Shown: piece by piece, positions 1,026-13,446 of the stretch | Numbering within the stretch: position 1 is the stretch's first letter | How the letters are laid out: every line of letters begins with the position of its first letter | Assembly: GCA_945872825.1 (NCBI GenBank) | Contig: CAMCBD010000026.1 | Coordinates: 1-32,876, forward strand | DNA length: 32,876 nucleotides | Direction of reading: 5' to 3' | Source of the DNA: Nitrosomonas ureae | GTDB lineage: Bacteria; Pseudomonadota; Gammaproteobacteria; Burkholderiales; Nitrosomonadaceae | Notes under the pieces: model-generated | The model's input: the letters and a program-made list of their open reading frames with translations, nothing else | The model's database searches: none | What the model was told of the DNA's origin: nothing | Program-made: the position numbers and the translations under genes

Positions 1026-4000
1026 ATGCAAAAATTAATAAATCGCAGTGTGGCAGTGCTCTTCTTCATCATCTGCACGCTCTACAGTCTCGTTACTTTT
1101 GCAAGCACCACAACTTTCCATCACCACATGGAAATCCAATTGTCGCCGGATACCTCGGAAATCCGGGTCAAAGACCATATTCAGATTCCAATGCATGTGC
1201 AGAATCAAGAAATCCCCATGCAACTCGATTTCTTCCTGCACGCCGGTTTGACGATTACGGATATACAAAACGCTGAAATTAAAGCACAAGGCAATGAAGT
1301 TGCTTTGAAATCCCGGTCAATTTCCATTAAACATTACACTGTAACGTTGCTTCCCGGTCAGAAGGAATTCACGCTGCATTTCAATGGAAAAATCAATCAC
1401 CCGGTGCAAAGCCCAGGACAAGAGTACGCACGCAGTTTCAGTTACACACCGGGAGTCATCTCGAATGAGGGAATTTTTCTGGCCAATTCCAGCGCGTGGT
1501 ATCCGCAGTTTGAAACTGATGCGATGGTGTCATTTCGCCTGGATATTCAAGTGCCCGCTGATTGGGATGTCGTCAGCCAGGGTACGTTGGTGCGCGAACA
1601 GAAAACAGCCACAACCCAGAATGTAATTTGGGAAGAAACACAGCCGCAAGACGATATCTATATCGTCGCGGGCCGCTATCAGCGCTACACGCAATCCGCC
1701 GGTGCGGTGAATGCTTTGGTTTATTTGCGTAGCGCGGATGAAGCGTTGGCGCAGAAATATCTGGACGTCACGGCGCAATATATTGCCCTGTATAACAAGC
1801 TGATCGGTCCTTACCCGTACACAAAATTCGCTCTGGTCGAGAATTTCTGGGAAACCGGATACGGCATACCATCGTTCACGCTACTCGGCCCCAAAGTAAT
1901 TCGTTTTCCTTTCATTCTGCATTCGTCGTATCCGCATGAGATTCTGCATAATTACTGGGGCAATGGCGTGTTTGTCGATTATGCCAAGGGGAATTGGGCG
2001 GAAGGCTTAACTGCTTATCTCGCGGATCACTTGGTCAATGAACAACGCGGCAAAGGCGAAGAGTATCGCCGCGACGTGCTGCAGAAATATGCTGATTTTG
2101 TGAACAAGGAAAAAGATTTTCCTATCATCCAGTTCGTTTCGCGCCATAGTGCGAGCTCGGAAGCCGTGGGTTATGGTAAGACCATGCTATTTTTCCACAT
2201 GCTGCGCCAGGAATTGGGCGACGAAGATTTTGTGCGCGTGCTACGTCAATTTTATAAGCAGTTCAAATTCAAACAAGCGACTTTTGCAGATTTGCTCACG
2301 ACGATCAACACAACCACCGGTCAAGATTTTTCTGCGCAGTTTGAGCAATGGGTGCACCGCGCTGGCGCACCCGATTTATTACTACGCGAGGCAGAAACCG
2401 AACGCACGGCGCAAGGATTTAAGCTCAAGATGACGGTTGAGCAAACGCAACCGGGCGAACTCTATCGTCTGCGCGTCCCTGTTTCTATCACGCTGGAAGG
2501 TGAGGATATGGCGACGCAATCGCACATCACTATGGATCAGCGAACACAAACCATTGAAATGGATTTCCACGCTCGCCCGGTGCGTATCGATCTTGATCCG
2601 CACTTTGATGTGTTCAGGCGCTTGGATAGCCGTGAAATCCCTTCCGCCTTGTCGCAGGGTTTTGGCGCAGAAAAACCGTTGCTGATTCTGCCTGCGCGCG
2701 CAGATAAACAAATCTCAGACGCGTATCGTGCGCTGGCGGCGAACTGGCAGAAAACCCAATCGAACCCACTGGAAGTGATTACGGACGATCAACTCACCGC
2801 TTTGCCCGCAGATCGCACCATCTGGATCATGGGTTGGCAAAATAAATTTGCTGAGACTGTCGCCAAAACTTTGGCGGATCGTAGTGTTTCCTATCAGCAG
2901 AACAAATTGCAACTGGATCAAAAGACCTATCCGCAAACTGAGCACGCCGTCGTATTGACTACCCGGCAACCGTCCAATCCGGATAAAACGCTGTTATGGA
3001 TCGCATCGGACAATCCCAAGGCGATTGCCGAGCTGGCCAACAAATTGCCGCACTACCGTAAATACAGTTATTTGGTATTCAAAGGCGACGAGTTGACCAA
3101 TATCGACAAAGGCCAATGGCCGATCACGCAATCGCCGCTCTCGCAATGGATCAAGCAGAAAGACAATTACGCCATTCACACGACACATACCGGCATCACC
3201 AAACCGCGCCGCGCATTGGCGGAATTGCCGCCGGTTTTTTCCGAGAGCCGCATGCTAAGTGATATTACGCATTTGGCCAGCGAATCGTTCAAGGGACGCG
3301 AACTGGGCACCCCGGAACTGGATACCGCAGCAACGTATATTGCCAAGCAATTTCAGCAAATCGGTCTGATACCCGGCGGCGGCGACAATAGTTATTTCCA
3401 GATTTGGCAGCAAGATGTCGGTGTGCCGAAGGGCACTATCACACTACGCAATGTGATCGGCATTTTGCCGGGTACCAACCCGCAACTCGCCGGGCAAAGC
3501 CTGATCATCGGCGCGCATTACGACCACCTCGGAATGGGCTGGCCGGACGTGCGTGCCGCACATCAGGGGAAAATTCATTACGGTGCGGATGACAATGCCA
3601 GCGGAATCGCCATCCTACTGGAATTGGCACGGCAAATCGTGCCCAAATGGCAACCGGAACGCACCATTATTTTTGTCGCTTTCACCGGGGAGGAAGCGAA
3701 TTTGCTCGGCTCCAAGCATTACATCCGCAATACCAAAAATTATCCAACCGGGAAAATCATCGCGATGCTGAATCTGGATACCGTGGGACGGCTTGAGAAC
3801 AACCCGGTCACAGTGTTCGGCGCCGGAACCGCGCGCGAACTGGTGCATGTTTTCCGCGGCGCAGGCTTTGTCACCGGCATTCGCGTCAACGCCGTACAAG
3901 ACGACTTCGGCTCCAGCGACCAAGCCGCATTCATCCAAGCCGGTGTGCCCGCCGTGCAATTCTTCGCCAGCGCACACGAGGACTACCACGCCCCCGGCGA

Positions 4001-4421
4001 CACCGTGGACAAAATCGACTCTGCAGGATTGGTCAAAGTCGCTGCCATCCTCAAAGAAGCCACCGAATACCTGGCTAACCGCATCGAGCCGTTAACCCTC
4101 ACGTTGCCATCGCAGAATGCGCAAACTGAATCCACAGAAACAAAAACCAAAGAAAAACGCACAGCCAGCCTCGGCACAGTGCCGGATTTTTCGTACCAGG
4201 GCGAAGGCGTGCGCATCGACAACACCCTCCCCGGCTCCCCGGCGCAACAAGCGGGACTACAACCGGGCGACATTTTGATTCAACTGGCTGGACAACCAAT
4301 CAGTGATTTGGCATCGTATGCTAATATCCTGCGAACGCTCAAAGCCGGAGAAAAATCCGAATTGAAATACCAGCGAGATGGTGAAGTGAATTTGGTTGAG
4401 GTTATGTTGGTTGAACGTTAA
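1026..4421 (+). CDS. Secreted M1-M28-PDZ multidomain metallopeptidase
   Basis: A 1131-residue exported protein with a signal peptide at about residues 1-26. The N-terminal half is an M1 (gluzincin aminopeptidase) domain. It has the zinc motif HEILH at about 304-308, a third ligand Glu in [10 protein letters not shown] about 18 residues later, and ENFWETGYG in place of the usual GAMEN. Residues ~750-1010 form an M28 aminopeptidase domain with [32 protein letters not shown] and DYHAPGDT, which together supply the two-zinc ligands. The last ~85 residues are a PDZ domain ([17 protein letters not shown]). It presumably trims peptides in the periplasm or outside the cell. The start is chosen because it opens the signal peptide; AAGGGA lies a few bases upstream. 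Two exopeptidase domains in one chain is unusual. Activity of both is inferred from the motifs. Confidence 0.85.
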
Positions 4422-4478
4422 TGGCGCTATGGTTCAATATTCTATTTTGCCGAATGACTAAACAGGGAGAGTTGGTGC

Positions 4479-4592
4479 ATGACAAAATCTGAGGCCCAAA
4501 CTCGTTCGGAGCTCATTGATAAGCAACTGGCGCTACCAGGCTGGAATATCAAAGACCCCGCGCAAGTGCCAGAGGGAGGACAGAGCAAATGA
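4479..4592 (+). pseudogene. N-terminal remnant of an HsdR-like restriction/helicase gene (37 codons)
   Basis: A short ORF with GGGAG upstream of its ATG. It encodes SEAQTRSELIDKQLALPGWN followed by IKDPAQV, which is very like the first ~30 residues of type I restriction R subunits and related DEAD/DEAH helicases (consensus: xTRxxLIDxxLxxAGWxVxDPxxV). After PAQV the frame departs from that pattern (PEGGQSK) and stops. The TGA overlaps the start of the reverse-transcriptase gene as ATGA, so ribosomes finishing this ORF could restart on the next gene. I infer that an incoming cassette or a deletion replaced the body of the old gene and left its promoter and start. It could alternatively be a short leader peptide in its own right. 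Confidence 0.6.
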
Positions 4593-7500
4593 CTGATCTT
4601 CAAAATCTTGGTCTTGCCTATCGCAAAGCCAAGGTTGATTTATACTACTCCTCACACGCCTCGCTGGACGCAATTGCAAAATATGAGGAAAACCTGCACG
4701 ACAACCTTTCCGCGCTGCTGGATAAGATCAACGGTGTAGATGAATCTTGGGTAACAAAAGTCAGCTTCATTGGCACTTGGACACTAGCAAGCAAATCTGT
4801 CGATATGGACGGCTGGAAGCATCATCGGAAAGAGAATGGCAACGGCCTGATCTTCTCTTCCCCGACCAATGAATGGGAACATGCCTGCAAGGCACTGACT
4901 GAAAACGAAAACCCTGAGAAACCAAAAGCTGAATTCCGAGTGATGGCGAAGTGCAGCCTGGACTTTCATGTGCTGTCCACGTTGTGGATGCTGGAAGTCG
5001 GCTATCTGTTTGATGCCAGATTGACCGACTGCTCTTATGGCAATCGTTTGCGTCGCACCAAGGATGGCAAGCTCATCAACCCGTTGTCGCTTGGTTCGTT
5101 CCAGCCCTACCTTAAGCCCTTTCGCGACTGGCGTGACAATGGCATCATCGCCATGCGCACCGCATTGGACGCTGACAAGAAGATTGTTGCGCTCACCGCT
5201 GATGTCAGCTCTTTCTATCACGAACTGAATCCCGGATTCATGCTGGCCTCAGCCTTCGTCAACGAGGTGTTGGGACTAGAGCTGACGGAAGATCAGGCCA
5301 AGCTCAACCGTCTTTTTATCCAGGCACTGTGGGCTTGGGCAGCGACAACGCCATTGAAGAAGGGCCTACCAGTCGGACTGCCCGCCTCTGCGGTAGTAGC
5401 CAACATCGCATTGGTTGAACTGGATCGCTGCATCGAGCAACAAGTGGTGCCTATCTACTACGGGCGCTATGTGGACGACATTCTGTTGGTCATGGAGAAC
5501 GGTGCCGATTTTGGCTCCACCGTCCAACTGTGGGAATGGTTGTTCGCCCGCGCTGGCGGAAAACTGGACTGGGTAGGTGCCGAGAAAAAGCAGCAGATTT
5601 GTTTCAAACCCAATTACCTCAGCCATGATGGAAGCAAAATCCATTTCGCCAATGGCAAGAACAAGGTGTTTATCCTTGCGGGTGAGCCAGGGAAAACGTT
5701 GGTGGACGCTATTGCCCACCAGATCCAAGAACGCGCCAGCGAATGGCGAGCCATGCCAAGACTGCCGCGATCGGCCGACCACATAGGCACCGATCTGTTG
5801 GCCGCCACACAAAGCGATGGTGAAGGTGCCGACAGCCTGCGTAAGGCCGATGCCCTGACCATGCGTCGTGCGAGCTTTGCTATCAAGCTGCGCGACTTTG
5901 AAGCCTATGAGCGTGACCTACTACCAGATGCCTGGGTGAAGCATCGACAAGCATTCTTCCGCGCTTTTATCCAGCATGTGCTGGTGTTGCCACAGTTCTT
6001 TGACTTGGCCATCTACCTGCCACGCGTGATTCGTCTGGCTACGGCCTGCGAGGATTTTGCAGATGTGCGCAAAATCTTCGAGACACTAGAAAATCTCTGC
6101 AAACAAGTCAAAGATCAGTGCGAAGTTGTCATCAAGGCGTGGCCCGAAGATGAGAAAAAGCCAAACGCCACCGAGATGATCAACTGCTGGCAAGAACAGC
6201 TCTTCTTCAGCATCCGCGAAAGTATCACTGCTGCCTTTCCACCCCGCTTGTCCAAAGCAGGCAAGCAGGCGTGGAAAGCACACATGGAAGACTGTCACCC
6301 AATGGTGGACCTTGAAACCTTTCCGGCTTGGCCATCATCAGTCAAAGACTTTCAAACACAGCAGGCACGACTGTTCTCATTCGACCTCGCGCACATGCCG
6401 TTTCGCTTCATCGGCTTGCCGAGGGAGATGGTCGCCCAGCGCGGTATCCCTGCGAAAAAGTCGGTTGTAGATTGCACCGAAGCCGCAAAGTTACTGCCGG
6501 ACAAAGTAACGACTGGCACTCAATCACTTGCCAAATGGCTAAGGTTCAAGGGCCTGCCGCATGGCCTACTGTTTGCCACCCGCCCCTTCAATCTGCCGGA
6601 GCTTTTCGTCCTGGACAAGGATGCCTATACCGAGATCGGACGCGCTGCCATGCAAGGCGTTGTGCTTGCTGTGCGCGGCTTTGAACTCAATGAGAGAGCC
6701 CCTTGTTTCGACAAGCACTGCGTTCTGCAAATTCCAGATGGCATCACTCCACGCAAATATGGTGTTGCCGTATCCAGTTGGCAGACGCACATGGGGAGCT
6801 GGACGGCATCCGTCATGCGAATGTCCGACCCAGACGCCGACCGCTACGCACGCCTGTGCCGTTTGCTGGATGGTGTAATAGCCCAACCTCACGATAGCCG
6901 CTATTTAATTTTGCCGGAACTGGCACTGCCCGCGCACTGGTTTATCCGCATCGCCCGCAAGCTGCAAGGTCGAGGCATCTCGCTTATCACGGGCATCGAA
7001 TACCTGCACGCCAGCAAGGCTCGGGTGCGCAATCAAGTCTGGGCAGCTCTGTCACACAATGGTTTGGGGTTTCCCTCACTGATGATTTACCGGCAGGACA
7101 AGCAATGCCCAGCCTTGCATGAGGAGCAGGAATTGCAACGGCTAGCCGGGCTAGAGATGAAGCCCAGCAAGGTTTGGAAAACGCCCCCCATCATTCAGCA
7201 TGGTGATTTACGTTTTGCCCTGCTGATCTGTAGCGAACTGACCAATATCAGTTACCGCGCAGCCCTGCGCGGCAAGGTGGATGCGCTGTTTGTACCGGAA
7301 TGGAATCCCGATACCGAAACCTTCAATGCGCTGGTGGAATCCGCCGCGCTGGACATACACGCCTACATCATCCAATGCAATGACCGGCAATACGGTGATA
7401 GCCGGATCCGAGCCCCGTTCAAGGACAGCTGGAAGCGCGACGTGCTACGGGTCAAGGGCGGTGTCACCGACTACTGCGTCATTGGTGAAATCGACGTGCA

Positions 7501-7624
7501 ATCCCTGCGCCAGTTCCAAAGCAGCCACCGCTCGTCCGACAAACCATTCAAGCCGGTACCGGATGGGTTCAACGAAGCGATGGATCACAACCGCAAAGTG
7601 TTACCTGCAGGCAGTGGGGAATGA
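4589..7624 (+). CDS. drt1: Defence-associated reverse transcriptase fused to nitrilase, DRT type 1 (UG1-like)
   Basis: A 1011-residue protein. The reverse-transcriptase domain spans about residues 130-330. The first catalytic Asp is in ADVSSFYHELN (Asp205), followed by GLPVGLPAS (259-267) and the catalytic YVDD (294-297). After a long linker, a C-terminal nitrilase/amidohydrolase-like domain carries ILPELALP (Glu777) and LLICSEL (Cys881), with candidate lysines just before the Cys. These are positioned as a Glu-Lys-Cys triad. RT plus C-terminal nitrilase is the architecture of the UG1/DRT1 antiphage family. The gene appears full-length and starts inside the stop of an HsdR-like remnant (ATGA). 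Relics of HNH and AlbA_2/Fic-like genes follow. No partner gene or structured RNA is obvious. Antiphage function is inferred from the family. Confidence 0.85.
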   Translation: MTDLQNLGLAYRKAKVDLYYSSHASLDAIAKYEENLHDNLSALLDKINGVDESWVTKVSFIGTWTLASKSVDMDGWKHHRKENGNGLIFSSPTNEWEHACKALTENENPEKPKAEFRVMAKCSLDFHVLSTLWMLEVGYLFDARLTDCSYGNRLRRTKDGKLINPLSLGSFQPYLKPFRDWRDNGIIAMRTALDADKKIVALTADVSSFYHELNPGFMLASAFVNEVLGLELTEDQAKLNRLFIQALWAWAATTPLKKGLPVGLPASAVVANIALVELDRCIEQQVVPIYYGRYVDDILLVMENGADFGSTVQLWEWLFARAGGKLDWVGAEKKQQICFKPNYLSHDGSKIHFANGKNKVFILAGEPGKTLVDAIAHQIQERASEWRAMPRLPRSADHIGTDLLAATQSDGEGADSLRKADALTMRRASFAIKLRDFEAYERDLLPDAWVKHRQAFFRAFIQHVLVLPQFFDLAIYLPRVIRLATACEDFADVRKIFETLENLCKQVKDQCEVVIKAWPEDEKKPNATEMINCWQEQLFFSIRESITAAFPPRLSKAGKQAWKAHMEDCHPMVDLETFPAWPSSVKDFQTQQARLFSFDLAHMPFRFIGLPREMVAQRGIPAKKSVVDCTEAAKLLPDKVTTGTQSLAKWLRFKGLPHGLLFATRPFNLPELFVLDKDAYTEIGRAAMQGVVLAVRGFELNERAPCFDKHCVLQIPDGITPRKYGVAVSSWQTHMGSWTASVMRMSDPDADRYARLCRLLDGVIAQPHDSRYLILPELALPAHWFIRIARKLQGRGISLITGIEYLHASKARVRNQVWAALSHNGLGFPSLMIYRQDKQCPALHEEQELQRLAGLEMKPSKVWKTPPIIQHGDLRFALLICSELTNISYRAALRGKVDALFVPEWNPDTETFNALVESAALDIHAYIIQCNDRQYGDSRIRAPFKDSWKRDVLRVKGGVTDYCVIGEIDVQSLRQFQSSHRSSDKPFKPVPDGFNEAMDHNRKVLPAGSGE

Positions 7625-7628
7625 GTAA

Positions 7629-7886
7629 GAGGATGATCACTACACGACTTTTTCCAATGCGAACCGCCTGAGCAAATGCCCGTTTTTCGGTATCGGTGAT
7701 ATCAAGGGCGAGCATTACAGCAAACGGGAGGCCTACGACCATTACCTGCCAAAGGCGCTGTACCCGTTCAACTTCATCAATTTTCGCAATTTGGCGCCTG
7801 TAGTCTGGCGAGACGACAAACCGGTGATGATCGGCGAGGATGCGCCGAAGGTATCAGAAAGTCCTTTCAAGCTACTGATCAAGTAA
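7629..7886 (+). pseudogene. HNH endonuclease fragment
   Basis: This frame opens after a stop at 7626-7628 and has no proper start. It reads RLSKCPFFGIGDIKGEH, then SKREAYDHYLPKALYPFNF, then INFRNLAPV. The DHYLPK...YP...NF-NL-P pattern is the core of a common HNH nuclease family. Those nucleases normally have CxxC zinc knuckles; here the first reads CPFFG (second Cys lost), and the distal CxxC after NLAP is replaced by unrelated sequence (VVWRDDKPV). Both ends are therefore missing. It follows the RT-nitrilase gene by four bases and is best read as debris of an older defence gene. Confidence 0.55.
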
Positions 7887-8023
7887 ACGACCATGTAACC
7901 GACCAAGTAGCGCAACTGTTAAAAGCAATCGGCACTCATGTACTCAACAGCGCCGGCTGGATCGAACGCACGCACGCGCGCAGCCTGATTCTCCGCGTAG
8001 CCCAACACAGCGTTATCGCTTGA
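7874..8023 (+). pseudogene. C-terminal relic of an AlbA_2/Fic-like ATP-binding or regulatory protein
   Basis: An out-of-frame stretch overlapping the end of the HNH relic encodes ATDQVNDHVTDQVAQLLKAI and stops at 8021-8023. Tandem (T/S)DQV repeats followed by a short helix are typical of the linker before the winged-helix tail of AlbA_2 (Schlafen-like) ATP-binding proteins and some Fic proteins, which are frequent in defence islands. There is no start codon or ribosome binding site. The assignment relies on one repeated motif and is tentative. Confidence 0.35.
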
Positions 8024-8191
8024 CTCATAAGAGTTTGCTTTGGTTGCAACTGCGAAATAATTGATAACAGAACACTGTTAACTGCTTAGTAATGCTTTGT
8101 TGACTTGTTATTATTCCCTGATTTCTCATTAAAATTAAGAAAACTCGAACAAAATAATGCAACCCAGTGATATCTCCCCTACTATATCGCG

Positions 8192-8860
8192 ATGAAAAAT
8201 TACTTCTCCCCCGTTCATCTGATATTTTTCGTTTTTCTGCTTGGCGTCATGATGGCGCTTATTCAAGTGGAGTTGCTGTCATTTGCTTTTGCGAAACTGG
8301 GTTTGTCACCGGCATTAGGATTGGTGGTGCTGTTTCTTTCCTTGCTGGGCAGCGTTATCAATTTGCCGGTGACTCGGATTAAAAGCCAGGTACCCATACA
8401 GGAATTCACGCAACCCGTGTATTGGGGGTTGCTCAGAGTGCCAGTGCGCCCATTTCACAACGAGACGCAGATTTCCATTAATCTCGGTGGTTGCCTGATA
8501 CCGGCGGCATTGTCGATTTATTTGTTTTCCAATAGCATGTTGAGCCTGTCTTCCACGCTGCTGGGGATCGCTATCATTACTCTAATCAGTTATTTTTTCA
8601 GCCGTCCGATTCAAGGGCTAGGCATTGGTATGCCGATACTGGTTGCGCCTGTCAGTGCGGCGCTGGTTGGTCTAATACTCAGTCCGGAACAAAGCGCACC
8701 GCTCGCTTATATCAGCGGCACATTGGGGGTGTTGATCGGCGCTGACCTGCTGCACATGAAAGATATTTCCCAGCTCGGCACGCCGTATGCATCGATTGGC
8801 GGGGCTGGCACATTTGATGGGATTTTCATCACCGGTATTGTTGCAGCATTGCTGGCCTGA
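8192..8860 (+). CDS. DUF1614 family integral membrane protein
   Basis: A 222-residue protein that is almost entirely hydrophobic, with roughly six to seven membrane segments. Features such as LLGSVINLPVTRI near residues 51-63, INLGGCLIPAALSIYL and the Gly-rich end GGAGTFDGIFITGIVAALL match the DUF1614 family of putative inner-membrane proteins. No function is established for this family. The ATG at 8192 was chosen because an initial hydrophobic helix follows directly; no strong Shine-Dalgarno sequence is visible. The gene stands alone between defence relics and a convergent PEP-CTERM gene, with a shared hairpin at its 3' end. Confidence 0.75.
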   Translation: MKNYFSPVHLIFFVFLLGVMMALIQVELLSFAFAKLGLSPALGLVVLFLSLLGSVINLPVTRIKSQVPIQEFTQPVYWGLLRVPVRPFHNETQISINLGGCLIPAALSIYLFSNSMLSLSSTLLGIAIITLISYFFSRPIQGLGIGMPILVAPVSAALVGLILSPEQSAPLAYISGTLGVLIGADLLHMKDISQLGTPYASIGGAGTFDGIFITGIVAALLA

Positions 8861-8876
8861 AAGATTAAATGCGCAC

Positions 8877-8899
8877 AAAAAACCCCGCCGCAGCGGGGT
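8877..8899 (-). terminator. Rho-independent terminator of the PEP-CTERM gene
   Basis: A perfect CCCCGC/GCGGGG stem (8883-8888 with 8893-8898, loop CGCA) is flanked on the plus strand by six A residues, which give a U-run for minus-strand transcripts. It lies about 20 bases past the end of the minus-strand PEP-CTERM gene and could also stop the convergent DUF1614 transcript. Confidence 0.85.
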
Positions 8900-8919
8900 C
8901 AGTAGCGTCTTCCTAGAAA

Positions 8920-9615
8920 TTAGGCTGTTTCTTGCAGTTTTTTACGTCGTGAAGCAAACCCCAACAAGCCAAGCCCAGCTAACAACATTGCATAGATTTC
9001 TGGTTCCGGAATGGCCGCTATGGCATCGATTTCGCCTTCGCCAGGAGAATAGAAACCACCCACCAGACGATCTCCCGAGACAACTGCAAAGTAATTATAG
9101 GAACCTGTGAAAGACCATTGTGTCGTCCAGTCGTCAGCATTCTTCAAAGCACTGGAATCATCCACTCCTTTCACCCACACATGAGTGATATGCCCTTCTT
9201 CGAGCAATGTGCCTGTGGAGTCAGAGCCGAAAATGCGGAATTCAAAAGCTTCCCAAGGCTCACCACCCGTGTTGCCAGCAGCCCAGCCATGGTCAATTGC
9301 TGGAATGGCAAGGACAGAACTCAGCGCGGTAGCACTATACACCACGATGGCCGGATCATACTGGAGCCAGTGATGGTCTGCTGTACTCATGGCGGCGGCA
9401 GGCGTGAAACCATCGCTACCCCAAGTTGATCCATCCGCCCAGCCGGTGGCACCGTTACCGCCACTTGAATAACTAAGATAAGTGGTTGGCGACACTTTGC
9501 CGCTTATCACTGTAGCAGTATCAATCAATGTTGTACCACCAATTGTGGTTGTAGCAAAAACAGAAGACGCTGATGCGGTAAATATGGCGATAGCTATTAA
9601 AGTCCGTTTAAACAT
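8920..9615 (-). CDS. PEP-CTERM sorting-domain exported protein
   Basis: A 231-residue protein with a signal peptide (MFKRTLIAIAIFTASASSVFA) and a classical C-terminal exosortase signal: IPEPEIYAMLLAGLGLLGFA followed by the basic cluster SRRKK. In such proteins the signal is processed by an exosortase during export to the surface or the polysaccharide matrix. The middle is rich in Gly, Ser, Thr and Trp and carries no domain I recognise. A strong ribosome binding site (GAGGTGA) precedes the start, and a clear terminator follows. No exosortase gene is in the window, so it must be encoded elsewhere if the signal is used. Confidence 0.9.
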   Translation of the reverse strand: MFKRTLIAIAIFTASASSVFATTTIGGTTLIDTATVISGKVSPTTYLSYSSGGNGATGWADGSTWGSDGFTPAAAMSTADHHWLQYDPAIVVYSATALSSVLAIPAIDHGWAAGNTGGEPWEAFEFRIFGSDSTGTLLEEGHITHVWVKGVDDSSALKNADDWTTQWSFTGSYNYFAVVSGDRLVGGFYSPGEGEIDAIAAIPEPEIYAMLLAGLGLLGFASRRKKLQETA

Positions 9616-9912
9616 AAAATCACCTCATAAAAGAATCATTCAAAATTTAGCACCGTAACCTTCAAGGCAGATACTTAATTGATTGTTTTTTAACCATCCT
9701 ATCTAGTAAATTGAAGTCTAACACATGGAAAATTTCTATTTAAAAAGAATTCCCTCTATAAAACCACTTATTTTGTCTTAATCCTTATGGGAAACAAGAT
9801 ACTTTAGGCTTTATCGCATTAACTCAATCCATTTCTGCAATTATCGGGTAACGCATTTATAATCGGCACACCCTTCGGGAAGTTGATTTGCACGAAGAAA
9901 TCGCGAAGAAAA

Positions 9913-10119
9913 ATGATGATTAAACCTAAAATCGAAATTACCGCCACGCCATTCAGTGGATGTTTTGGCTGCTACATATCTTTTCTCGACATAGACAAGC
10001 ATCTGGCCGGTCTACTCGAACATTGCTGCCCGTTCGATATCGGTTTGATTGAGAACGGTGTGTACAACGCAGAAATCGTGCCTGTGTTGCGTCGTTCCTC
10101 CACACCAAAAATACAATGA
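9913..10119 (+). pseudogene. hoxY: Relic of an NAD-reducing [NiFe]-hydrogenase small subunit (HoxY-like)
   Basis: About 68 codons encode SGCFGCYISFLDIDKHLAGL and then FDIGLIENGVYNAE. HoxY proteins begin with a similar GCxGCxxSFLDxDE motif (two cysteines of the proximal FeS cluster) and continue, after ~20 more residues, with CDIGLIEGGVCNxEN. Here the intervening segment is shortened, the Cys of the second motif is Tyr, and the frame ends soon after, so only the first third of a normal ~180-residue subunit remains. No hoxF, hoxU or hoxH is nearby. The stop overlaps the next gene's start (ATGA). A possible TATAAT box lies at 9858-9863. A relic of lost hydrogen metabolism is inferred. Confidence 0.5.
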
Positions 10120-10871
10120 GTTTTTCTATCGATATTTGCGAAAAAGCCGGTGTGCGCACATTGCATTTCGGCTCCGACTGGATACAGGGTGCAATGCGCA
10201 TCGCACGTCCATGGCATCTGGAACTCGACTACACCCGGGAAATGATGGCAAGTCTGCTGCTGAGAGATGATGTGCGCTTTCCGCGCAAAGTGCTGCTGAT
10301 CGGTCTTGGTGCGGCATCACTGACCAAATTTTTATATCGCAACTACCCACTGGCAAAACTGACCGTGGTTGAGATTGAACCGCGCGTGGTGGCAGCAGCA
10401 AAGCAATTTTTCAAACTACCGGAAGATCCACTGCGCCTGAATATCGTGATCGCAGACGGCTCAGAGTATATCGCTGAACGCGACAGGACCTACGATCTGA
10501 TTCTGGTGGATGGTTTCGATGCTGATGCACGTCCCGGTGCATTGGATATGCTGCCGTTTTACCAGATGTGCCGCGCTCGATTAAACCCTAACGGCATCCT
10601 TGCGGTGAATTTGTTGGGTCGCAGCCGCGGCTACCAGGCCAGTCTGGAACGCATTAGAGCATCGTTCGACGAGCGCGCGCTGGCTTTCCCGTCCTGCGAC
10701 AAAGGTAACGTCATTGCAATGGCCACGACCGGAGAGAAAATTAAAATTCCATTGGATGAACTCAAAGTGCAAATACTCAAATTGAAAGAAAGCACTGGAC
10801 TCAGTCTACTACCGACGTTGGCGCGTCTGGAGCAGGCAAAATCTTGTCCGGGCGGAATTCTTGAGATTTAA
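10116..10871 (+). CDS. Spermidine synthase-like SAM-dependent methyltransferase-fold protein
   Basis: A 251-residue protein of the spermine/spermidine synthase superfamily. The N-terminal region has LHFGSDWIQGAMRIARPW. The Rossmann nucleotide site is LLIGLGAASLTKFL (~60-73), with VVEIEP (84-89) as the acidic loop and LILVDGFDAD (128-137) as the position of the catalytic Asp in true synthases. It is shorter than SpeE (~280-300 residues), so it may act on another substrate; many such stand-alone homologues are uncharacterised. It begins within the stop codon of the HoxY-like relic and has no clear Shine-Dalgarno sequence of its own. Enzymatic role is uncertain; family membership is firm. Confidence 0.8.
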   Translation: MSFSIDICEKAGVRTLHFGSDWIQGAMRIARPWHLELDYTREMMASLLLRDDVRFPRKVLLIGLGAASLTKFLYRNYPLAKLTVVEIEPRVVAAAKQFFKLPEDPLRLNIVIADGSEYIAERDRTYDLILVDGFDADARPGALDMLPFYQMCRARLNPNGILAVNLLGRSRGYQASLERIRASFDERALAFPSCDKGNVIAMATTGEKIKIPLDELKVQILKLKESTGLSLLPTLARLEQAKSCPGGILEI

Positions 10872-11033
10872 CAAATGAAAGTATGGGCGAAAACATGGGA
10901 ACAGATCACGAAAAAATAGTGACGAAGAATCGGATATCCTTCTGTTTTGTAATTGATATGTGTGATTCTAGGCCTGAATATCCTGTTACTTTAGATTCTA
11001 CTTGGTGTGATTTTCTGGGTAAGCTTTAGCAAC

Positions 11034-11072
11034 AAAAAAACTCCGTCACCCTTCGTTTGAATGACGGAGTTT
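11034..11072 (-). terminator. Rho-independent terminator downstream of the minus-strand RTX gene
   Basis: AAACTCCGTCA (11038-11048) pairs perfectly with TGACGGAGTTT (11062-11072). On the minus strand the stem is followed by a run of T residues (plus-strand A tract at 11034-11040). It lies directly after the end of the RTX gene. Confidence 0.85.
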
Positions 11073-11084
11073 AGAGGGGTTAGT

Positions 11085-12044
11085 TTAAACAACTAAGAAA
11101 TCAGCGGCTGATACAGGAGGGACACCGCTAAGGATAGCAAAGACTTGTGCTCCACCCGCAAAACCACCATTAAAGTCATACGACAACTCACCATTCGTGG
11201 TGTTATAAACCAGGTAATCATTGGCATCTACCGCAGTGCCGGTTGCATTGGCGCGGAAGTTAGCCGCTGCAACAGCGCCTGGAGCGAAATTGGAAAAAAT
11301 AAAATTCTCCAACTCAATGGTATCCGCAGGCGCAAAGAAGCCGTTAATCAGATCAACGTTGGTGGCACCGAGTGGCGTGTCGAACAGATAGCGATCGTCA
11401 GCGCCTAAACCGGCAAAGAGGATATCGTTGCCCAGACCGCCGACGAGATAATCATTTCCAGTACCTCCAAAAATAGTATCGTTACCATCGAGTCCGAAAA
11501 TCCTATCATCGCCTGCGTCGCCACTTAAAGTATTAGCAGCGTTGTTTCCAAAAATGTCGTTGTTATTGCTGTTACCGGTACCATTGATTGCGGCAACGCC
11601 ACCCAATTAAAGATCTTCAATGCCAAAACCTAAGGTATGCGTGGCAGCAGTAGAAAAAACAAAATCATTGAGACCTCCTGCCACAGTATTCACGGTTTCG
11701 GCGGCAACATCTCCCACACTGTCGACAACATAGAAATCGTCCTGGTTGCCACCATCCATGATGTCTGCACCCGTGCCGCCATCTAAAAAGTCAAAGCCAG
11801 AACCGCCGAGCAGATTGTCGTTACCGCTACCGCCAAAAAGACTATCATTTCCGCTGCCGCCAATAAGCCGATCATTTCCGCTGTCGCCAAAAAGTTGATC
11901 ATCCCCGCCCCTGCCGTCCAGGATGTCATTACCTCCGAAGCCGCGGATAACATCGGCGACAGCGGTGCCGATTAAACTAAAGCGGAAAGCGCCGCCATTG
12001 AACGTGTTGTTGTCATTAAAGTTTGTACCATTGATATTTGCCAT
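11085..12044 (-). pseudogene. RTX calcium-binding protein interrupted by one in-frame TAA
   Basis: Reading from ATG at 12044, a 145-codon segment ends at TAA (11607-11609). The same frame then stays open for another 173 codons to 11085. Together they make a coherent ~319-residue RTX protein. Many nonapeptides of the GGxGxDxxx type (GNDRLIGGSGNDSLFGGSGN, LDGGTGADIMDGG) lie before the stop, and more (AGDDRIFGLDGNDTIFGGTG) after it. The end is a typical type I secretion tail (DLINGFFAPADTIELENF). The sequence crosses the stop without a break (GFGIEDL, stop, LGGVAAINGTG), so a single substitution of a sense codon is the simplest explanation. AGAGGT precedes the start. It is divergent from a second RTX gene. 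Readthrough is possible but unproven. Confidence 0.8.
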
Positions 12045-12447
12045 TTTGGTTACCTCTGTATTTAATTAGAAGAAATCAACAAATTTATTCATTAACATTC
12101 TTTACGAGGAAAATGATATAATTAATCATATCAAGCACTTGCATCGCTTTAATAGCGATTATAATGCGCCTGGATTGTTACAATAGGCACTAATATAATA
12201 GCACTATCGATTCTATTTGATGTGATTTTTTACGTATCCAAGTACGTATGTAGTATGTATGAGGGTCGAGCTTACTTTGGCGTTCTGAGCGTAGAGAATA
12301 AAAATCTATTCGCGGGATTCGGGTTTTCCTATACGTTTACCTAAACATATTAAGTTTATGTATAATGAAACTAAGGAGAAAGCGGATTTATTTTTCCTAT
12401 ATACCTTTAATTTTATTGGTATGAATTACTAAAACAAGGAGAAGCAA
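12045..12447. promoter_or_regulatory. Shared regulatory region of the divergent RTX genes
   Basis: About 400 AT-rich bases separate the two RTX starts. A perfect TATAAT lies at 12361-12366 in the plus direction, with TTTACC at 12336-12341 as a weak -35 at long spacing. Further upstream, TACGTA occurs at 12231-12236 and 12243-12248 and TATGTA at 12254-12259. These are spaced by 12 and 11 bases, about one helical turn, as expected of sites for an oligomeric regulator. The leader before the plus-strand gene is about 75 bases and ends in AAGGAG. Regulator identity is unknown. Confidence 0.4.
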
Positions 12448-13446
12448 ATGGCCATCATCAATGGAACTGAGCTGAGCGACTTTCTCACCGCGCTGAATGT
12501 GGATATCAACGGGATTGGCGACGAGATATATGGTCTTGGCGGCAACGATACAATCACTGGATTTTTAGGCAGTGACAAATTATTCGGTGGCGCAGGGCGC
12601 GACACGATCTATGGTATGGACGGCCACGATACACTGGATGGTGGCGCTGGCAATGACCGGCTGTTTGGTGGCAACGGCAATGATGGCATGGTCGGCGGTG
12701 CTGGTGACGACTATCTGAACGGTGAGCTGGGATATGATGCAGTGGACTATCGCGGGGTCACGGGCACGCGCGGAGTGACTGTCGATCTGCGCATTACCAA
12801 GGCCCAGAATACAAAGGCTGACGGAAATGATACGATTGTCAATGTCGAGCAGGTCTGGGGTTCAAACCTCAATGATACAATCACCGGCTCGAACGGCGAT
12901 AATGATCTTTATGGCTTCAATGGCAGCGACATCATCAACGGCGCTGGCGGCAACGACAATATCTTTGGCGGATTCGGAGAAACCACAGGTAACACCCTGT
13001 CCGGTGGTGATGGCAATGACAGCATTCTCGCCTCATCTGGTGCAGACACGCTGCGTGGCGATGCGGGGAACGACCGCCTGACGGGTTCGCTTGGCACCGA
13101 CCGATTGACGGGGGGCACTGGCGCTGATCGATTTGTATTCGACAACTTGATCGATTCCACCATAGCCGCAGCCGACACGATCACGGATTTCAATGGTGCT
13201 GAAGATCTGATCATGCTGGCACCCCTGCAATTCACCACATCGCAGACCTTCATTGGTTCGACGGATTTCTCGGCAACGGGTGGAGCCGAACTGCGGGTGA
13301 CAACGGCAGTGGGCATTCAAACGCTTCAGGTCGATGCCAACGGTGATGGCACAGCCGACATGGCTATCAAGGTGATCGGCACGGCACTTGCCGCTGATGA
13401 CTTCATCTATTCACCTTTCGGCGGGCTTGGCGGTTTCGGTATCTGA
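12448..13446 (+). CDS. RTX repeat calcium-binding secreted protein
   Basis: A 332-residue protein without a signal peptide and rich in Gly, Asp and Asn. Tandem RTX nonapeptides run from about residue 28 to 75 (YGLGGNDTITGFLGSDKLFG, GGAGNDRLFGGNGNDG) and again from ~130 to 225 (GGDGNDSILASSGADTLRG). The last ~100 residues (RFVFDNLIDS, ADTITDFNGAEDLIML) match the C-terminal region used by type I secretion systems. It is presumably exported by an ABC transporter complex not present here and folds when it binds calcium outside the cell. AAGGAG lies seven bases before the ATG. It is an intact counterpart to the broken divergent RTX gene. The specific role (adhesin, surface-layer or enzyme scaffold) cannot be told. 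Confidence 0.85.
   Translation: MAIINGTELSDFLTALNVDINGIGDEIYGLGGNDTITGFLGSDKLFGGAGRDTIYGMDGHDTLDGGAGNDRLFGGNGNDGMVGGAGDDYLNGELGYDAVDYRGVTGTRGVTVDLRITKAQNTKADGNDTIVNVEQVWGSNLNDTITGSNGDNDLYGFNGSDIINGAGGNDNIFGGFGETTGNTLSGGDGNDSILASSGADTLRGDAGNDRLTGSLGTDRLTGGTGADRFVFDNLIDSTIAAADTITDFNGAEDLIMLAPLQFTTSQTFIGSTDFSATGGAELRVTTAVGIQTLQVDANGDGTADMAIKVIGTALAADDFIYSPFGGLGGFGI

Follow-up and report, generated by a model that had tools for sequence, protein, structure and literature searches.

The closest solved protein, by sequence, to the gene described here is the defence-associated reverse transcriptase (DRT) DRT1 (UG1, PDB 9yfd; hmmsearch with the family profile, E 1.4e-19), in which homologous reverse transcriptase (RT) and nitrilase parts are combined in the same architecture. 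The gene itself lies in a stretch of 32,876 nucleotides of Nitrosomonas ureae DNA (in the following called the window), contig C26 of a 2.76 Mb genome, and encodes an RT-nitrilase of the UG5-nitrilase family behind a short open reading frame (ORF). With the other UG5-nitrilase RTs (PADLOC RT_UG5-nitrilase) it shares the full-length match, the C-terminal nitrilase and the invariant catalytic residues; it differs from them as an orphan of a type I restriction-modification (RM) operon which carries an hsdR::hsdS scar. We consider it fairly probable that the gene encodes an autonomous class 3 DRT that once occupied a late position in a type I operon, that it now stands in a remnant of this operon, and that such proteins form a second layer of defence where they are nested.

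Effector genes embedded in immune operons have been described before. PrrC, an RloC homologue, is likewise encoded inside a type I locus, and the protein reacts when the RM system is inhibited (PMC12707154). PrrC is an anticodon nuclease, whereas the window protein is an RT-nitrilase whose family also occurs in BREX and DISARM; the sensing of RM inhibition is known for PrrC and would be only a candidate role for UG5-nitrilases. Backup effector genes similarly lie between BREX core genes, and those named are HNH, PD-(D/E)XK, TOPRIM/OLD, HKD, HEPN, PIN and Schlafen effectors; in the main text of this survey the words 'nitrilase' and 'DRT' are absent and 'reverse transcriptase' has a count of zero (PMC12839542). 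A system termed 'RT-nitrilase + 1TM' was tested in the paper on P2/P4 hotspots (PMC9122126). An RT-associated transmembrane (TM) gene adjoins the UG5-nitrilase at one of our loci (L098); the tested system may belong to UG5. The UG5-nitrilases are perhaps the 'DRT5L' proteins of the DRT1 paper, as their class 3 label there suggests, with DRT5S and DRT5L standing for small and large UG5 (PMC13275509). A search of titles and abstract openings, which did not cover the 2022 UG/Abi survey and supplements, turned up no report that places RT-nitrilases inside type I RM, BREX or DISARM systems.

The family of the window protein was determined by profile searches. The PADLOC model PDLC03780 (RT_UG5-nitrilase) matched residues 2-1008 of the 1011 residues with 1049.8 bits, compared with 88.4 bits for the Drt1a (UG1) model over two stretches, the best at 772-993 in the nitrilase part. 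The original prediction, made from the letters of the DNA, had labelled the gene DRT type 1/UG1. This membership was rejected, and by these scores the window gene is a UG5-nitrilase, a class 3 DRT-type RT. The fusion of an RT to a nitrilase-like domain with intact D205, YVDD (294-297), E777 and C881 was predicted correctly. All of these residues were found at the predicted positions and, together with K838, are invariant in 24/24 aligned UG5-nitrilase sequences, an alignment made without the broken genes L009, L013, L014 and L015. We take E777, K838 and C881 to be a Glu-Lys-Cys triad. C881 aligned with C1116 of DRT1 9yfd, the nitrilase residue that was mutated in the DRT1 paper (PMC13275509).

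Pfam detected RVT_1 alone in the RT-nitrilase protein. The nitrilase part was modelled separately with AlphaFold 2 (AF2; residues 708-1011, 304 residues, 13 sequences), which gave a mean predicted local distance difference test score (pLDDT) of 73.6. The top Foldseek matches of this model in the PDB were nitrilase-superfamily amidases (best E 2.4e-10, TM about 0.55). As judged from the model, the C-terminal region has a nitrilase fold, as had been proposed. The following features were assigned within the gene:

4589..7624, forward strand: UG5-nitrilase gene (RT-nitrilase), 1011 amino acids (PADLOC PDLC03780; alignment of 19)
5096..5530, forward strand: RT domain core, residues 170-314 (Pfam RVT_1, E 1.6e-8)
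5201-5203 and 5468-5479, forward strand: codon of D205 and codons of YVDD (residues 294-297), inside the RT core
5738..5740, forward strand: Ser384, candidate protein-priming residue, invariant in 24/24 aligned sequences
6788..7573, forward strand: nitrilase domain, residues 734-995, with E777, K838 and C881 (PADLOC RTasNitrilase, E 2.8e-46)

Ser384 lies six residues after Q378, and S402 of DRT1 likewise lies six residues after Q396. The profile alignments to DRT1 stop short of Ser384, one of them covering the nitrilase part only, and according to the DRT1 paper the other class 3 DRTs do not conserve S402 (PMC13275509). Ser384 as protein-priming residue is thus a lead only.

The 37-codon leader ORF (4479-4592, stop TGA) overlaps the RT ORF (4589-7624) by ATGA, as the original prediction had stated. 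It consists of two pieces of different origin:

4465..4469, forward strand: Shine-Dalgarno-like GGGAG, 9 nucleotides ahead of the leader ATG, read from the sequence
4479..4567, forward strand: hsdR head, the first 30 codons to within a base (blastn, codon comparison, protein match)
4568..4592, forward strand: hsdS tail, the last codons and the native TGA (DNA match contiguous with the hsdS end and the RT in Nm75 and Nm132)

These pieces were recognized by comparison with Nitrosomonas sp. Nm132 (L003) and Nitrosomonas oligotropha Nm75 (L002), which belong with the window genome and the Nitrosomonas genome of L010 to one genus. Leader residues 1-32 were 78% identical to the start of the Nm132 HsdR (E = 1e-11), and the DNA from 4478 to 4567 was 75.6% identical to the start of its gene (blastn, E = 7e-12), both matches lying well beyond chance expectation. 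From 4573 on, the window corresponds to the Nm132 hsdS end and RT with 90.2% identity over 3059 columns. The match to Nm75 begins at 4568, exactly where the hsdR match ends, which places the junction at 4567/4568. A codon comparison agreed: codons 1-30 of the leader follow hsdR, and codons 31-38 follow hsdS including its native TGA. In Nm132 the two matching pieces are 6.05 kb apart in the same order and on the same strand, and the genes on this strand are hsdR, a 136-residue ORF, hsdM, hsdS and RT (Pfam assignments). Because the counterparts of the two leader pieces stand at opposite ends of the RM genes in this hsdR-x-hsdM-hsdS-RT operon of Nm132, the ancestral RM genes appear to have been deleted and the hsdS-RT junction kept. 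From the sequence, the leader is a scar in which hsdR and hsdS are fused in frame (hsdR::hsdS), and the ATGA overlap is the junction that hsdS and RT had ancestrally. The 'beheaded' HsdR leader of the original prediction was therefore right in its match to the HsdR start and wrong in its anatomy: the head is present, the body has gone and hsdS supplies the last 7 codons. We infer a single deletion event that joined hsdR codon 30 to the hsdS end. In Nm132, hsdR codons 28-30 and the hsdS tail have CGCAGGT in common in the same reading frame, a possible deletion point.

The leader peptide (37 residues) was searched in nine genomes, with one Mariprofundus genome counted under two handles, and gave matches at E <= 1 in 6/9. 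Besides Nm132, it matched the hsdR start in a Hydrogenophilales metagenome-assembled genome (71%, E 3e-10) and in Mariprofundus (58%, E 2e-6), and all three hsdR matches sit on contigs with the UG5-nitrilase of the respective genome. Weaker matches (35-57%) occurred elsewhere in the searched genomes.

The original prediction had also suggested that a foreign RT was inserted behind the start of a restriction gene and uses its expression signals. An hsdR head and a Shine-Dalgarno-like site do precede the RT, and this much of the suggestion stands. However, the end of the leader is hsdS sequence contiguous with the RT, which contradicts a capture, and relatives carry hsdR-hsdM-hsdS-RT as one operon in which the RT is already a late gene. 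We regard such a capture as very improbable. The alternative offered with it, that this DRT branch conserves a small ORF which has a function of its own, is equally hard to believe. Short ORFs indeed precede the RT in L002 (61 residues), L006 (47 residues) and L012 (24 residues), but they are the tails of different genes: the first is an hsdS tail (32/53 residues identical to L003), the second a YhcG tail (13/20 identical to L096) and the third the tail of an unnamed gene (15/22 identical to L015), with 0/2000 shuffles as good in each case. A stub at L005 was dropped as a kept gene tail, as 1756 and 45 of 2000 shuffles were as good. Different genes or gene tails precede the RT in different loci, and no peptide common to loci with different upstream genes was seen. 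Tails were kept where the upstream genes were lost (that of hsdS in both the window and Nm75, that of YhcG in L006 and that of the unnamed gene in L012), as would be expected if the translation start region of the RT were under selection.

A noncoding RNA at the locus was rejected: Rfam gave no match in 4000-8300, and the predicted fold of 4422-4620 was no more stable than those of shuffled sequences (z 0.74). No sigma70-like promoter was found in 4300-4700, no match for the window gene among phage records and none for the leader DNA among plasmids. GGGAGG at 4574-4579 lies inside the hsdS tail of the leader, 9 nucleotides before the RT ATG, and translational coupling of leader and RT may be inferred.

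What became of the restriction partner was investigated in the window genome and its relatives. Outside the leader, the Nm132 HsdR query gave only 28-30% matches in the window genome (contigs C55, C27), and a Hydrogenophilales HsdM query only 23-47% matches (C55, C3, C19, C45). A type I hsdR/hsdM/hsdS set was not encountered; the locus keeps 30 hsdR codons and the hsdS tail, and hsdS was not searched genome-wide. A separate, divergent hsdR/hsdM pair is present elsewhere in this genome (G000:C55). In Nm132, an in-frame stop interrupts hsdM (2102-3820) and the RT downstream is intact. Nm75 keeps just a 61-codon ORF which ends in the hsdS tail. The RTs of the window, Nm75 and Nm132 group together in a single clade (100/100 support); as read from the genes, each of these loci has an open RT frame next to an RM part that is interrupted or lost. 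The pairwise ratios of nonsynonymous to synonymous substitution rates (dN/dS) of 0.124 (window-Nm75) and 0.155 (window-Nm132) suggest that the RT-nitrilase gene is under selection.

In order to compare the neighbourhoods of the family, 28 distinct loci were collected, the window included, each of which carries the RT part of a UG5-nitrilase fusion. Fourteen came from genome contigs found with the window's own peptides, 8 more from overlapping samples of 41, 398, 399 and 369 genomes, one from 85 Nitrosomonas genomes, two from viral contigs (101 confirmed, 80 kept) and two from plasmids (one of S. meliloti in 3 records, one of an E. coli lineage in 2 records). Membership was assigned by hidden Markov model (HMM) for the genome-sample loci and nine more, and for the others by 64-90% tblastn best-segment identity; among the viral contigs only L097 and L098 match residues 4-994 at at least 30% identity. 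Four of the 28 loci are broken (L009, L013, L014, L015), L015 matching residues 1-593 only. Excluded before the count were the fragments L030, L054 and L055, the split RT/nitrilase pairs L052, L053 and L100, the distant fused viral ORF L099, other viral hits with short RT matches, Leptospira plasmid hits to the nitrilase part only, and duplicates. Since the flanks of L041 on its 4.2 kb contig are unreadable, 27 readable loci remained.

Among the excluded sequences, L054 (G457:C35) is an isolated nitrilase part which is 88% identical to that of the window. In L030 (G001:C6) the first 105 RT residues are joined to an ORF with RHS repeats, and L052, L053 and L100 are two-gene versions with RT and nitrilase as separate neighbouring ORFs.

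Type I RM genes were found in or beside the RT locus in 10/27 (L003, L004, L005, L007, L008, L012, L015, L027, L029, L051), BREX genes in 4/27 (L010, L013, L028, L096) and DISARM genes in 1/27 (L057). Altogether 15 of the 27 readable loci are linked to one of these systems, and HMM typing identified one or more core genes at each of them. Two further loci (window, L002) carry type I relics. YhcG/DUF1016 adjoins the RT once (L009), and a YhcG relic does so once (L006). None of these systems was found at the remaining 8 (L011, L014, L050, L056, L065, L066, L097, L098). Of these, all except L066 had one nearby ORF scanned, which yielded a weak type II enzyme match at L065 and the RT-associated TM protein at L098. 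At L050 the UG5-nitrilase adjoins a divergent gene pair of SIR2 and pAgo. The samples searched with the family model alone gave 8 readable loci besides the window, of which five were linked (G069, G224, G342, G648, G1022), one lay beside YhcG (G353) and two were unlinked (G528, G975); G069 and G353 also belong to the peptide-found set. The six full-gene loci of the Nitrosomonas genus sample were 4 linked ones and 2 relics. Judged from the gene content, the observation that UG5-nitrilases are often nested in the three named systems stands.

One explanation of this nesting is that the RT-nitrilase is a PrrC-like sentinel of HsdMS, PglX or DrmMI complexes, which silence it or are sensed by it, and that it kills the cell upon phage inhibition of the complex; the window copy would then have outlived its ward. 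The position of the gene agrees with this proposal, as does the embedding of PrrC cited above. In most linked loci the RT stands immediately behind the gene for the specificity subunit or methyltransferase, or 1-2 genes further on, the exception being L029, where it follows hsdR. In the BREX operon of L028 (G342:C1, reverse strand 5514-12225) the RT-nitrilase sits between two pglX halves, each with its own start and stop, which match model positions 2-605 and 621-1171 of 1174. In the DISARM locus L057 (G1022:C1) it lies between DrmMI and DrmA, with DrmB beyond; DrmMI is interrupted there by a gene that resembles a transposase by eye, the RT-nitrilase being next. A place in or beside type I RM, BREX or DISARM, found in the 15 linked loci, is seen only as a relic in the window. 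Several observations speak against a sentinel. No partner seems to be required, because copies occur outside these operons at 8/27 readable loci, and one of them, at 99% or more, is present in 253/5426 E. coli genomes and adjoins AbiE-type genes, an ash gene and tRNA-Thr in the two chromosomes read (RefSeq annotation). Moreover, the window and Nm75, and probably Nm132 as well, retain the RT without a working partner, a hazardous state if the partner served to silence it, and a single binding interface is harder to reconcile with three unrelated partner systems. We consider the sentinel rather unlikely. More doubtful still is its extension, in which UG5 (perhaps class 3) RT-nitrilases would be transferable, ATGA-linked guard cassettes for methylation-based immunity generally. 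The response to inhibition of the complex would consist of protein-primed DNA synthesis together with a suicidal nitrilase, and the window orphan would be a guard that now acts on its own, with its DNA adduct serving as the safety catch.

A second explanation is that an ordinary defence gene has landed in defence operons for shared expression and that the partner is irrelevant. Mixed contexts and broken copies are consistent with this hitchhiking, and the RT finds a good ribosome binding site within the leader. On the other hand, the start of the RT overlaps the stop of the upstream gene by ATGA in 10 loci (window, L002-L004, L006, L013, L027, L028, L051, L096). Short ORFs of 27-34 codons with an ATGA offset at L005, L012, L015 and L029 were left uncounted because they had no matches. 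The downstream gene overlaps the RT stop in L007, L010 and L096. The labels of the host systems are also clustered on the RT tree, with 12 changes versus a shuffled mean of 15.3, a value as low being reached in 1/200 shuffles, a clustering to which near-copies contribute.

DRT1 loci served as a control. Drt1a was matched in 7/398 genomes, and five loci with an RT and a readable flank were retained (L058-L061, L064), after L062 (nitrilase only) and L063 (short contig) had been dropped. No type I, BREX or DISARM genes were present beside the RT in these five loci. With these systems alone counted, the linkage of 15/27 for UG5 and 0/5 for DRT1 differs (p = 0.03) and argues against mere hitchhiking. 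However, L064 adjoins an Hma system with the HmaB methylase and HmaC, and an ORF for a type II-like methyltransferase lies upstream at L060; when any methyltransferase neighbour is counted for DRT1, 15/27 is compared with 2/5 (p = 0.44). The contrast is weak and a difference between the neighbourhoods of UG5 and DRT1 is not established; an association between RT-nitrilases and methyltransferases may not be confined to UG5. Hitchhiking is a real possibility, though not one we would bet on. It agrees with the reading we favour on the autonomy of the protein and denies the layered role, so the likelihoods assigned to the two overlap.

According to the favoured reading of an autonomous DRT in an operon remnant, the RT was originally a late gene of an hsdR-x-hsdM-hsdS-RT operon. 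As the sequence comparison shows, loss of the intervening DNA joined hsdR codon 30 in frame to the hsdS end; the resulting 37-codon hsdR::hsdS peptide now precedes the RT, and the ATGA overlap between them is the ancestral one. The RT-nitrilase would act alone through protein-primed DNA synthesis and nitrilase-dependent abortive infection. Where it is nested in type I RM, BREX or DISARM, it would provide a second layer behind the methylation-based defence.

Several observations weigh against this reading. The full-length AlphaFold model (11 sequences) was unusable with a mean pLDDT of 40.9. The DNA 5' of the leader is unlike that 5' of the Nm132 hsdR, and the promoter is not traceable to Nm132. 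No leader-like match was found in the Bordetella, Advenella and Castellaniella genomes, which are type I carriers. On the window branch 39/100 codon changes alter the amino acid, versus 31/154 on the Nm75 branch (p = 0.0015); compared with the Nm132 branch (35/108) there is no excess (p = 0.38). Some relaxation of selection on the window copy is possible. Decay of UG5-nitrilase genes appears to be common, because related RT genes are themselves broken or cut in L009, L013, L014, L015 and L030.

Downstream of the RT two gene relics were detected:

7625..7890, forward strand: relic of a downstream gene, with similar DNA in L002 and L003
7870..8024, forward strand: C-terminal relic of a Fic gene (matched twice at the DNA level by the L002 Fic ORF)

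An ATG at 7621-7623 overlaps the RT stop in the window. The motif of the first relic continues in L003 in an open frame directly 3' of the RT; by eye it looks HNH-like. The L002 Fic ORF carries Fic and Fic-like_C domains. The M28 peptidase that precedes the leader is present in 72/85 Nitrosomonas genomes, and in the four of these that were read different genes lie 3' of it. The DUF1614 side recurs in only one of the four, G019; where the window has the RT, this genome encodes, among others, a protein which resembles by eye the zeta toxin-like one of L002. The DNA 3' of the M28 peptidase is thus variable cargo (window 4422-8191 and L187-L190), the RT here and toxin-like or Fic-like genes by eye elsewhere, and the locus seems to lie in a cargo hotspot. 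Near it, both strands encode proteins with RTX repeats, and there is also a gene for an FxDxF PEP-CTERM protein (11610-13443 and 8923-9615).

Should UG5-nitrilases prove to be a recurrent second layer within the three methylation-based systems, they would join PrrC and PARIS as RM-linked effectors with a quite different chemistry, namely DNA synthesis plus a nitrilase. The proteins of the window, Nm75 and the nested type I RM locus L004 are about 80-90% identical. The collapsed locus provides a natural pair of similar proteins, orphan (window, Nm75) and nested (for example L004), and the guard question therefore becomes directly testable. The orphan would be a natural test of whether the RT-nitrilase needs the restriction machinery or works alone.

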